From Sipunculus nudus (lineage: Eukaryota; Annelida; Sipuncula; Golfingiida; Sipunculidae), in the NCBI GenBank assembly GCA_026874595.1, contig CM049322.1, positions 49,825,340-49,889,339 of the forward strand: a stretch of DNA of 64,000 bases. Direction: 5' to 3'. The notes under the pieces were generated by a model. The model did no database searches, was not told the origin of the DNA, and saw only the letters and a program-made list of their open reading frames with translations. Both the position numbers and the translations under genes were made by a program. Within the stretch, counting starts at the first letter, position 1. Every line of letters begins with the position of its first letter. This document shows positions 3,401 through 63,755 of this stretch, in pieces.

Positions 3401-6400
3401 ATACGAATATTCCCTTGTATATAGACATGCAAATCAGCAAACTCTCATTAATTGATTTCTAAACCATAAATGAAATTGACTTTCAGCGAATATCCATTCA
3501 GATGCTGTTCAGTTTATTTCTTAGTAATGACCTACCACCTCAGACATTTTAAATCCATGCGATGAGATAATTTTAAATATTGGACGTCGCTTTTCATTGC
3601 ATGATCAAATATCTTCAGCATTTCAATACATGAACATTTGGTGATACAGATACAATACCAACTCTGTATTGTGATGTATCGGTGAACTGGTGTACCATTA
3701 CCACTTTTCTAGAGTATGTGTACATTTTCTAGAGTTTTTAACATATACTTTTCTATTGGGTATTTGGTTTCTCACCTATAAGGTCATGTTTGCTGTAATT
3801 TTCCATTGTCATTACTTGTTCTCTGAAACAAACAGTAAAAAGTATATTGCACAAGGCTGATACACTTCATGCAAAACATTCAATCCTAAAATTTAAACCT
3901 CTGAAAAAGTGCTTCTATGCTGTAATGCAGATGGCTGATTAAAGGTGCACTGAATAGTAATATCTGTGTTATGTTCTGTGTTTTTGTTGCTTGCCCGAAA
4001 TCTTCGATTTCGGCAAGTTGGTTGGTCAGTCGCGTATGTCTGTCTGTCTGTTTGTTTGTTTGTTTATTTGTTTGTCTGTGGACTCTCTACAGGCCACAAT
4101 TTTACAGGAATTGCTTTCAAACTCACACAGCTGGTCTATAATCAAAATTTCAGGAAGCCTATTGTTTTTGGGCAATATAGGTCAAAGGTCAAGGTCAAGG
4201 TCATCAAAAGTATACAAAACGGTTTTTTCTTCATATCTTTGTTACTATTTGTCATATCTACTTGAAACATAGCTCATTTTAATCGTCATTCCAAGGCCAG
4301 TCATCTGGTGTGTAGCTGACTCAAATTTGCCGTAACCATGGTTACGAATTTTTGGGAAAAAGTCATGATTTTCGAAAATAAGGCGCCTTATTTTTCTAAC
4401 TTTGGCAGTTTTACAGCTAGAGAGGTCTAGTTTTTTGCATCAGGTAGCATTTAACAAGTACTGTAAGATTTTATTACAGGTCTCGCGATATCTCGTATAA
4501 TATCTCGTCAAACGAGATATTTCAAGATTTCAGTAATCTTGCCCTGGAGGTCACAGTTTTGCAGGAATCTTTTTGAAACTGACATAGCGTAAGTCCTACA
4601 CTATTATCTCAAAATTTGTTTTTCCATTTTTTGAATGCAGCCGCTAGGTGGCGCTGTATGCAAACCTCCCCAACATATCATGTTTTGGCGATATCTCCAA
4701 AACTGTGAGCCTCAATTACATAAACTATAGCTTATTTTCTTCCTCTGAGTCTTTTCTAAATCCTGGTGGAGTCATTTTGACTCAATCTTGAGTCACTTTG
4801 TCAGTATGTCCGTCTGTTTCTCAGTTTTCATCAAACTCGCCTGCTTACCGGTTATGGCGTCTCACATATAGCATTCTACAGCTCACAGTTTTGAAAGAAT
4901 CCTTTTAAAACTATTACATCTTATGTCTTACACTAATATCTCGAAACGGATTTTTCCTTTTCCAGAATTGGCCGCTAGGGGGCGGTGCACTCAAACTTGT
5001 ACAACATATCATTTTTTGGCCATATCTCCAAAACTAAAAACCTCATTTACATAAACTATAGCTTATTTTCTTCCTCTGGGTCTTTCCAAAAACCTGGTGT
5101 ATTCATTTGGTCTCAATCTTGAGTCACTTTGTCTGTGTGTCCGTCTGTTTCTCAGTTGTCCTCAAATTCGCCTGCTTGCCGGTTCTTGCGTCTCACATAT
5201 AGCATTCTACAGGCCACAGTTTTGAAAGAATCCTTTTAAAACTATTACATCTTTTGTCTTACACTAAAATCTCGAAACAAATTTTTCATTTTCCAGATAA
5301 GGCCGCTAGGGGGCGGTGCACTCAAACTTCCACAACATATCATTTTTTTGGCCATATCTCCAAAAGTATAAACCTCATTTACATAAACTATAGCTTATTA
5401 TCTTCCTCTGAGGTTTCTCCATCACATGATTAAGTCAACTGGTCTCAATCTTGGGTCAGTTTGTCAGTATGTTTGTCTGTTTGTCAGTTGTCCTCAATTT
5501 CGCCTGCTTCCTGGTTCTTGCGTCTCACATGTAGTATTCTACTGGCCACAATTTTGCAGGAGTCGCTTTGTAACTTACACTTGTCGTAACGATATCTGGA
5601 AGCCCATGTTAATTATTCAAATAAGTCAAAGGTCAAGGTCAAGGTGATCAAAACATATCAACATTTTTTTTCTTCAGAACTTTGTTAATATTGATCCTAT
5701 CTTTACAAACTAGGGATTATTTTCTTTCACTTTGACATTGATCGTTTATCTGACTAACTTTACGTCATTTCCGGCAAGCGCGTGACCTCTGGTCATCTAG
5801 TTTACCTAGTAATTAACTAAGAGAAGGTCAAATTTCATTACATATCCATTACTTTTTTATAAAATTATTTCAGGACTATTAAATACTCAAAATTCACATT
5901 TTAAATTTAATGATTTTTTTTTATGATTCTTAATTGGTCTTTGATCCCTGAGGAAGCAAGAATTGCAAGATTTTCTTGTACAGTGGAACCCCACAATTAC
6001 GACCACCCTGGGGACTGAGCAAAATGGTTGTAATTTGGGGGTGGTCGTATTTGTGAAACTCTTACCGTGGTCGCATATAACACGCTGATATTTAATGTGT
6101 ATCAGAGTTTATCTATTGCATATCTTTAATGTGAATTATAACAAAATATTTTACCTAGCGAAGGACCCTTATTATGAATGTTTTTTTTGTGTGTGTAGCT
6201 GAACATATTTATTCATGATAAAAATTAATATACATGTACAAATACGTAGTGACTGATAATTAACAAAAAAAATAACACAAAGGAAATACGATTACAACCT
6301 TCTGAATGCATATTGAACATAATACGTGGCTGTCATATATTTAGCCTTCCGCTTGAGTATATATTGCGTGCACTTGAGTTTTCCCGACGCTAAACTGCTG

Positions 6401-62949: not shown

Positions 62950-63755
62950 ATGCCCCCGCCACAAAGTAGTTTTACCCATGTCCGTTGTTCCGTCCTTCCG
63001 TCATTCAGAAATCAAACAGTTGTACGGACTTTTTTTCGCAATGCCTGCAGATATTGGCCTGATTTTTGGTGTGTGGGCAGATATAGAACAGTTACAGATC
63101 GAGTTCGCGTTTCGTCCCGGTTGACCTACTTTTGACCGTTTTACGGCTCCTAAACTTAGAAAATTTCATGAAAAATAAAAATATTCATGACAGATACACA
63201 TGTAGGGTATTTTTTTCGCAATGCCTGCAGATATTGGCTTGATTTTTGGTGTGTGAGCAGATATAGACCAGTTACAGATAGAGTTTGCGTTTCGTCCTGG
63301 TTGACCTAATTTTGACCGTTTTACGGCTCCTGAACATAGAAAAATTCATGAAAAATATGAAATTTCATGACAAATACACATGTACGGACTTTTTTTCGCA
63401 GTGCCTGCAGATATTGGCCTGATTTTTGGTGTGTGGACAGATATAGACTAGTTACAGATCGAGTTCGCGTTTCGTCCCGGTTGACCTACTTTTGACCGTT
63501 TTACTGCTCCTAAACTTAGAAATTTTCATGAAAAATAGTAATATTCATGACAGATACACATGTATGGACTTTTTTTGGCAATGCCTGCAGATATTGGCCT
63601 GATTTTTGTTGTGTGGGCAGATATAGACCAGTTACAGATCGAGTTTGCGTTTCGTCCCGGTTGACCTACTTTTGACCGTTTAACGGCTCCTGAATATAGA
63701 AAATTTCATGAAAAATATGAAATTTCATGACAAATACACATGTACGGACTTTTTT
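62950..63755 (+). mobile_element. Family B element, copy B2, interrupted by A3
   Basis: It opens ATGCCCCCGCCACAAAGTAG with a CCGT-type tract, followed by four core units of 178 bp with TTTTTTCGCAATGCCTGCAG. The fifth unit is cut inside its T-run (ACATGTACGGACTTTTT) by the start of a family A element; the remainder is expected beyond the window. Confidence 0.75.

Follow-up and report, generated by a model that had tools for sequence, protein, structure and literature searches.

Background

Non-autonomous passengers of Helentrons, the Helentron-associated interspersed elements (HINEs), are a kind of element already known, and the sequence data presented here support the assignment of four families, A to D, to this kind. 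The families are found in a 64,000-nucleotide stretch of the Sipunculus nudus genome (G000:C17:49825340-49889339; genome of 1.43 Gb in 153 contigs), referred to below as the window. Among the closest described systems is Cg_HINE of the oyster Crassostrea gigas. In the structural account that we drew on in PMC7492417, these elements have a 5' subterminal inverted repeat (subTIR), a complementary inverted repeat, a microsatellite of mostly 4-nt units (several being GTCY, GTCC or GTCK), a satellite-like core and a 3' subTIR with a palindrome; families A to D are like them in this, in T-rich (TT) insertion without target duplication, and in having unrelated sequences built on one plan. The same account lists 10 autonomous elements found in C. 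gigas and reports the autonomous source of the HINEs as unresolved. Unlike the oyster HINEs as treated there, family A shares its 3' end with an autonomous lineage, H2. In the account drawn on here, a single hairpin shape that keeps its flaw, self-targeting of the microsatellite and strand domains do not appear.

HINE-Mo/DINE-1 and their Helentrons, as far as the sections of PMC4067079 used here go, resemble families A to D in subTIRs, a 3' palindrome, microsatellite or tandem repeats, a partner with Rep, helicase and endonuclease, and insertion among T's with the target unmodified. Unlike them, the present families have other sequences (DINE-1 has a core of its own), and several families here have nearly one 5' fold. 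The relevant part of PMC5148889 describes Fusarium FoHeli as having Helitron2-like ends, hairpins and multiple 5' termini explained by self-insertion, which is similar to what we see, although the termini (TCAG, ATTTT) are different and family C has up to nine 5' termini per locus. Two bacterial systems are comparable by analogy only and not by homology, the enzymes being bacterial: in REP/TnpA-REP a single-stranded hairpin with a bulge is required for activity of the E. coli enzyme (PMC8266576, the portion on substrate structure), and in IS200/IS605 orientation tracks the direction of replication (PMC5371812, the portion on orientation). As far as we know, three things are new: the 3' match between a HINE family and an autonomous lineage of this genome, a flawed fold that is kept fixed, and strand domains.

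A common plan and a common 5' hairpin shape

We consider it likely that families A to D are rolling-circle Helentron passengers whose 5' end is read as a hairpin of fixed shape, with the autonomous element H2 (C17:35630192) as the likeliest partner of family A. The first-pass annotation of the window had proposed one plan for families A, B and C, i.e. a 5' hairpin with a subterminal repeat, a CCGT or CTGT microsatellite, a tandem core, an inverted copy of the 5' repeat, a 3' hairpin, CTAG or CTTG, and a T. This plan was recovered in all three, and a fourth family on the same plan, D, had been missed.

The family C element (3988..5800, plus strand; ends common to the copies in L009-L028) has the 5' hairpin CTTGCCCGAAATC-TTC-GATTTCGGCAAG at 3990, a CTGT/TTTG microsatellite at 4037-4079, a 331-bp tandem core at 4640-5556 and the 3' repeat ATTTCCGGCAAG at 5767, followed by the 3' hairpin and CTAG ending at 5800. 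In family B (47044..48589, plus strand) a T-run precedes the hairpin at 47049, and a CCGT-type microsatellite, a tandem core of ~180 bp (47133-48493), the 3' repeat GGCGGGGGCAT at 48556, the 3' hairpin and CTAG ending at 48589 were identified. The family A element at 58819..61435 (plus strand; genome copies in L043-L062) starts with TT and the hairpin at 58821 and continues with a CCGT microsatellite (58866-58910), two diverged copies of a unit of ~620 bp, the 3' repeat CAGCTGAGC at 61405, the 3' hairpin and CTTG. Family D (29522..30716, plus strand; further copies in L069, L042 and L054) has the 5' hairpin GTATCTGCCCAAAACAGAGTTTTGCAGATAC, which carries a two-base flaw in the window copy, a 273-bp tandem core (29851-30603), and then the 3' hairpin in the GTCGAC region and CTAG ending at 30716. 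The inverted complements were as proposed, 9 bp in A, 11/11 in B and 11/12 in the window copy of C, while 12/12 was seen in most of the listed C ends and the complement of D is imperfect. The core lengths were likewise confirmed, for C and B using Tandem Repeats Finder (TRF), and for A using self-BLAST, which gave a duplication of ~660 bp at 74% identity. A further suggested member, at 946-1222, does not clearly fit: GGGCCC inverted repeats and a CTGT microsatellite are present, but the hairpin shape and a hairpin-CTRG end were not found in this single copy, the genome not having been searched for others.

These families are abundant. The A and B 5' hairpin patterns occur at 22,627 and 2,884 places in the genome, respectively, and the exact 29-base 3' end of C at 670 (425 + 245); the reversed-pattern control gave 0 in each case.

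Folded as single-stranded DNA, the 5' hairpins of A (AGCTCAG-C-TGACT-ATA-AGTCA-T-CTGAGCT) and B (ATGCCCC-C-GCCAC-AAA-GTGGC-T-GGGGCAT) form one identical 29-nt structure, (((((((.(((((...))))).))))))), with ten of the twelve stem pairs differing by reading. Family C (genome form CTTGCCGGAAATC...) folds into stems of 7 and 5 bp around a one-base bulge, closed by a 3-nt loop; in the L054 copy of D the stems are 8 and 5 bp, with a one-base flaw between them and again a 3-nt loop. The L042 copy of D carries the same one-base-flaw shape, as seen by scan. Fold z-scores of the four families (L054 copy in the case of D) ranged from -4.5 to -7.9, and a decayed D copy in L069 gave a different fold with z = -3.5. 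Scanning the window for the shape with perfect pairing (complexity and G+C filter applied) returned 16 raw matches at 4 sites (37607 on the minus strand, 47049, 58821 and 63756), all of which are HINE 5' ends, and 0 in 40 shuffles in which two-base blocks were shifted. When one mismatch was permitted, the C hairpin at 3990 was the sole addition (17 raw matches; null mean 0.95, maximum 7), and scanning of the fetched loci added variants of the C and D hairpins together with a small number of unrelated matches.

The flaw in the stem is retained. Among the first 100 of the 22,627 listed A places it was repaired in none: the flawed C was kept in 100/100, and the base opposite to it, counted by reading, was T in 97, A in 2 and C in 1, while the loop was other than ATA in 30. 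For the first 100 of the 2,884 listed B places we found C opposite C in 84, another mismatch in 14 and a G-C pair in 2. These are counts of sequences and not of events, they are inflated by subfamilies, and in them the stems are fixed by the search pattern, with the flaw positions and the loop left free. Moreover, the inverted 3' repeat of A, B and C includes the base at which the 5' hairpin is flawed, and a pairing of the 5' arm with the 3' repeat would therefore be perfect at this base, whereas the local hairpin is not; to judge from the sequence, the element may switch between these two pairings. Searching the Helentron literature for hairpin, bulge and subterminal features gave no description of such a flawed fold, and Rfam gave no match in the window, L034 or L021.

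A palindrome ahead of the 3' end is also present in A to D, with stems of 4-5 bp as DNA. Its fold z-scores were -3.3 (B), -2.3 (A), -1.7 (C and D) and, for H2, -0.7, and since these are low the stability of the 3' hairpin alone is weak evidence. Comparison of 21 pairs of 3' ends against shuffles gave no standout similarity for A-B (472 of 1000 shuffles as good), B-C or A-D; besides the pairs among A, H2 and H2b, those that stood out were A-C (2/1000) and B-D (9/1000). Sequence homology as the source of the common plan was rejected on this comparison.

Boundaries and insertion among T's

For family A, 848 candidates were reduced to 40 scored places and 20 regions (L043-L062). Together with two window copies and L029 these made a set of 23 sequences, of which 18 had both ends readable with 3 mismatches allowed and five were dropped; two of the 18 (L061 and L062) contain more than one end. 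For family C, 3029 first-look candidates gave 40 scored places and 20 regions (L009-L028), 15 chosen from among the higher-scoring places and 5 for additional 5' matches.

The boundaries of A, B and C persist in copies with unrelated flanks. The 5' start of A is TT-AGCTCAGCTGAC, and TT ahead of AGC and T after CTTG are present in 18/18, the two bases directly after CTTG being TT in 17 and TC in one. Counting the element as TT-AGC...CTTG, a target duplication of fixed length is absent, and the flanks match by 0-3 bases, all of them T's. An empty site is provided by the B array into which an A element has inserted at 63754 (continuing in L029): the B monomer reads GGAC-TTTTTTT-CGCAATG and the filled site GGACTTTT[TT-AGC...CCCTTG]TTTCACAATG, and from this comparison A brings its own TT and duplicates nothing. 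Reading of two A-in-A cases, in L047 and L061, likewise gives insertion among T's without duplication. In family B, 34 of the 40 scored places begin at query 7-9, where the 5' boundary piles up, and the rest start at 1, 4, 5 or 6; two copies (window and L029) share the 3' end through CTAG, after which the flanks diverge. The 3' ends of C read ...CGGCAAGC.CGTGACCTC[A/T]GGTCATCTAG and then T, with small variations, and the flanks differ beyond. Of the two results named in the first-pass annotation as refuting, neither appeared in the cases checked: the A-in-B empty site agrees with the ends as predicted, and no target duplication beyond T's was seen.

Subterminal inverted repeats at both ends, a complementary inverted repeat forming the 5' hairpin, a 3' palindrome and, shown for A, insertion among T's without target duplication are traits of HINEs. 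A canonical Helitron does not fit: A ends in CTTG, the elements start with TT-AGC, T-ATG or TG-CTTG and not with TC, and insertion is among T's and not between A and T, although the CTAG end of B, C and D fits the canonical CTRR. The proposal that the families are Helentron-associated and pearl-like is upheld by the T-rich insertion without duplication, the subterminal inverted repeats, the 3' palindrome and the presence of A's 3' end on H2.

The families could instead be transposons with terminal inverted repeats (TIRs), such as miniature inverted-repeat transposable elements (MITEs), or foldback elements, that do not move by a rolling circle. Inverted repeats near both ends would suit such elements, and bivalve Pearl was first called a MITE and later re-categorised, according to the passage on it in PMC7492417. 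The repeats are, however, subterminal and asymmetric, the fixed target duplication of TIR elements is lacking in the 18 A sequences (the statement applies to family A only), the target is T-rich, and the 3' end is shared with an element that has Rep and an endonuclease, and we regard this alternative as very improbable.

The autonomous Helentrons H1 and H2

The Rep family PF14214 gave 143 matches in the genome (150 of 195 candidates scored) and none in 14 control genomes. H1 (C4:36174940) encodes a protein of 2217 aa with DUF6570, OTU, Rep (Helitron_like_N), PIF1 helicase and endonuclease (Exo_endo_phos), and so has the Rep, PIF1 and apurinic-type endonuclease of Helentrons in one protein. Its 3' end, given by a pile-up at query 2591-2597, reads ...CTTGTAGTATCCA and then TTTT, and the pile-up of homologous places gives ...ACAAGAACTTGTAGTATCCA before a T run, unlike the ends of A to D. 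H1 was rejected as partner of A to D on account of this mismatching 3' end; L063 and L064 stop short of its 5' end. In a tblastn search of the window and L001-L064 with the H1 protein as the only Rep query, the sole match was its own locus.

H2 has its Rep match in an open frame of 2342 aa, and at its C-end a match to Exo_endo_phos_2 with E 1.2e-5, slightly below the curated cut-off (a related frame on C13 gave 3.2e-10). The start of an H2-like frame in L070 (2672-2899) matches Herpes_teg_N weakly and below the cut-off (E 0.0064). About 1 kb past the endonuclease frame of H2, the 3' repeat, hairpin and CTTG of family A recur as GTCAGCTGAGCATCATGACCCATGGGTCACTTG, followed by TTTT; the 3' repeat of H2 matches 11 bases of A's 5' arm. 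In a search with the H2 3' region (40 scored of 2078 candidates, the query itself included), five places at 98% identity (C10, C1, C9, C5 and C8) continue from the frame and stop at query 1524-1528, that is 2-6 bases past CTTG (1519-1522) and within or just after the T run, and a sixth, at 91% identity, stops at query 1521. Because the copies stop just past CTTG, the 3' end of A is also the 3' end of H2. The region read around another relative (C8:33939342, 82%), L072, holds two A-type ends, CAGCTGAGCGTCATGGCCCATGGGCCACTAG then T and CAGCTGAGCGTCATGACCCATGGGTCACTTG then T, the former with a compensatory G-C pair and CTAG; either of them might be the end of the Rep element.

No partner for B, C or D was found in the 3' sides of six of the 143 Rep regions (C4, C13:9113000, C17, C13:66174000, C11 and C8): A's end is in those on C17 and C8, another end in that on C4, and in three the end was not located. 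The end motifs of B and C were not found in L063-L070, nor was the D end in the Rep regions read, save for a D copy inserted in L069, and none of the three was seen in L072 by eye. The search for an autonomous Helentron with a shared end, called for in the first-pass annotation, gave a shared 3' end for family A, on H2, and none for the other families in the Rep regions read.

Self-targeting and 5'-end arrays of family C

Family C preferentially inserts into its own microsatellite. Counting the 22 3' ends of C that have 60 or more bases of flank, 16 lie in a C-type microsatellite and 6 in unrelated flanks. As scored by script, the microsatellite and body of another C copy follow in 13/22, and 4/22 directly abut another C 5' end (3 of these are among the 13); two further rows read alike with a variant body. 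Outside the 22 are L011, which was not oriented by the script and has an unrelated flank, and ends with shorter flanks, e.g. L022 (unrelated flank).

The 5' ends of C also occur in arrays of up to nine, spaced by 60-76 bp except for two larger intervals in one of the arrays. At two loci 8 or 9 5' ends are accompanied by only two 3' ends (3 mismatches allowed) within the following ~10 kb, and this imbalance rules out simple nesting as the cause of the arrays. Since nesting alone is unbalanced, either duplication of the unit or the Fusarium model, in which an outer 5' end is used with the first 3' end (PMC5148889, as outlined in its part on 5' termini), is needed. The order of variants from outside to inside was 2-to-1 in 8 cases and the reverse in 0, an order biased by the choice of loci by similarity to variant 1 and of five of the 20 regions for additional 5' matches.

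On several contigs (L034, L021, L022 and L024) the C 5' arrays adjoin one and the same non-C sequence, which in L034 is tandem at ~1.6-1.8 kb.

Strand domains

Strand listings were made for HINE families on contig C1. The 100 listed places of B span 0.15-27.7 Mb, with 46 on the minus and 54 on the plus strand. Here 29/32 neighbouring pairs at a distance of 5-100 kb have one strand in common (0/100,000 shuffles), or 25/28 beyond 1.2 Mb (3/100,000), against 30/64 for neighbours at least 100 kb apart. For A (100 listed places, 0.1-3.1 Mb; 85 minus, for which ~0.745 agreement is expected by composition) pairs on the same strand number 130/141 at 20-50 kb, 172/190 at 50-100 kb and 394/530 at 200-400 kb, and 57 of the 58 places between 0.096 and 1.17 Mb are on one strand. 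Agreement also extends between families: when each B is compared with the nearest A at a distance above 3 kb, the strands match in 12/13, and for C with A they match in 13/13, in approximately three to four clusters. Using the A subset with loop GTA (A-GTA; 2,747 copies, 100 listed), agreement with B is 14/17 at 3-30 kb (649/20,000), 18/20 at 30-60 kb (76/20,000), 14/21 at 60-100 kb and 40/69 at 100-200 kb, and then about half; over 3-60 kb it is 32/37, and 25/30 past 3.2 Mb.

This pattern suggests strand domains of ~60-100 kb or more that are shared between families and may be tied to replication forks. A tentative and, in our judgement, rather unlikely extension is that unrelated passengers, read through one flawed-hairpin fold, would be pasted into single-stranded fork DNA with the strand recording fork direction, leaving a fossil map of germ-line replication domains of ~60-100 kb, comparable to the orientation record left by IS200/IS605 in bacteria. 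That domains might arise from gene orientation, local hopping or segmental duplication and not from forks has about an even chance. The data are from one contig and from HINEs alone, and the strongest region is a contig end; A-GTA neighbours 5-100 kb apart agree only in 14/23, which is not significant; B thinned to one place per 20 kb has no significant runs overall (48/85; 2418/20,000 shuffles); a C place listed at 18.925 Mb has the other strand from a B place 19 kb away; and the window itself holds elements of both strands. All of these weigh against forks, while the near-uniform A strand over 0.096-1.17 Mb and the agreement of B with A-GTA at 3-60 kb, which persists past 3.2 Mb and is gone beyond a distance of 200 kb, speak against the other causes. 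In the open-licence literature searched we found no report of strand domains for Helitrons or Helentrons. If fork-driven, the domains would bear on target choice of Helitron-type elements and make germ-line fork direction readable from genome sequence alone.

How the passengers may be read and moved

In the mechanism that we propose, what the Rep/helicase would read at the 5' end is a hairpin in single-stranded form, 12-13 bp long, with a one-base flaw 7-8 bp from the base and a 3-nt loop. The Helentron Rep would nick at this hairpin, the helicase would peel off one strand up to the 3' hairpin and CTWG, and the peeled strand would be joined between T's without target duplication, A being most likely moved by H2. 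Nicking, the single strand and replication are taken from Helitron work (Helraiser, PMC5876387, in the part on its mechanism); we infer the single-stranded intermediate, hairpin recognition, rolling-circle replication and H2 as the enzyme source for the present families. The plan of the elements, their boundaries, the T-rich target without duplication, the common 5' shape, the 3' end common to H2 and A, and the self-nesting of C are observed directly.

Several points speak against this proposal. The 3' hairpins have short stems, many shuffled sequences folding as well as some of them, and the scan shape was picked once the folds had been seen. The flaw is repaired in 2/100 listed B places and in one L037 B copy (by reading), and it is enlarged in the D copies of the window and L069. 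As to H2, its helicase is assumed, the middle of the frame lying outside the stretches read; the stretch upstream is still internal to H2 in other copies, with the 5' end beyond it; the other 33 of the 40 scored 3' places stop at query 511-1371 and do not run in one piece to the end, four of them (C7, C15, C1:47161489 and C9:7670235) carrying a separate short piece on the end; and the two A-type ends in L072 could come from separate insertions.

Which enzyme moves B, C and D can be seen in two ways. The first-pass annotation held that one Helentron Rep/helicase mobilises all families by structure. Its structural half is backed by the common shape and the retained flaw, which suggest that shape is read more than sequence; the near-identical 5' hairpins on unrelated sequences, the matching strands of A and B in the same neighbourhoods, and the A-C 3' similarity (one of the 21 pairs) would suit a single enzyme. 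However, only A's end is on the autonomous elements found, and in H1 there is another candidate source, whose 3' end is different. With no partner found for B, C or D in the Rep regions read, "one Rep for all" is unproven, and we regard it as possible but doubtful. Alternatively, each family may have its own autonomous Helentron that reads sequence, the plan being inherited and no enzyme crossing families, and to this we give slightly less than an even chance. The presence of A's 3' end on H2 and of another on H1, the dissimilarity of the A and B 3' ends, and the >95% identity of some HINEs to their partner (PMC4067079, in its comparison of the two) point this way. Against it, autonomous ends of B, C and D are missing from the six Rep regions, three of which have no located end; none of the 83 listed C 3' ends on C1 follows a C1 Rep place of like strand within ~10 kb (by eye; exact ends); and the common hairpin shape is hard to account for without a common reader. 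Because A and H2 share a 3' end in one genome, the source of a HINE type of this abundance becomes testable. The near-identical fold also makes the idea of structure above sequence concrete: repair of the flaw is predicted to abolish recognition.

Further elements in the window

Ten elements were oriented in the window, eight on the plus strand and two on the minus strand, and A-type 5' ends are present at 37607 (minus), 47017, 48802, 58821 and 63756. A second family A element (35000..37609, minus strand) is 98.6% identical to the copy at 58819-61435. A probable outer A-type element (47017..51391, plus strand), with the 3' end GAGACCCCTGGGTCCCTTG ending at 51391 and with its 5' and 3' ends paired from the order of nesting, encloses the B element described above and an inner A-type element, A2 (48802..51226, plus strand), which has the H2-like 3' end CAGCTGAGCGTCATGACCCATGGGTCACTTA. 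The second B element (62945..64000, plus strand) has a shortened 5' hairpin, and its array is split by the A element at 63754..64000 (plus strand; 3' end beyond the window, in L029) and continues past the window, the CTAG end lying in L029. A decayed A-type 3' end, CAGCTGAGCATCATGACCCATGGGTCAATC, is at 12678..12719 on the minus strand.

Other repeats were also noted. At 5983-7210 inverted ends CAGTGGAACCCC...GGGGTTCCACTG and repeated GGTCG(T/C)AATT motifs probably represent a TIR DNA transposon, and long arrays of ~29-bp and 23-bp units, as listed by TRF, occupy 39145-41230 and 43776-44482, respectively.

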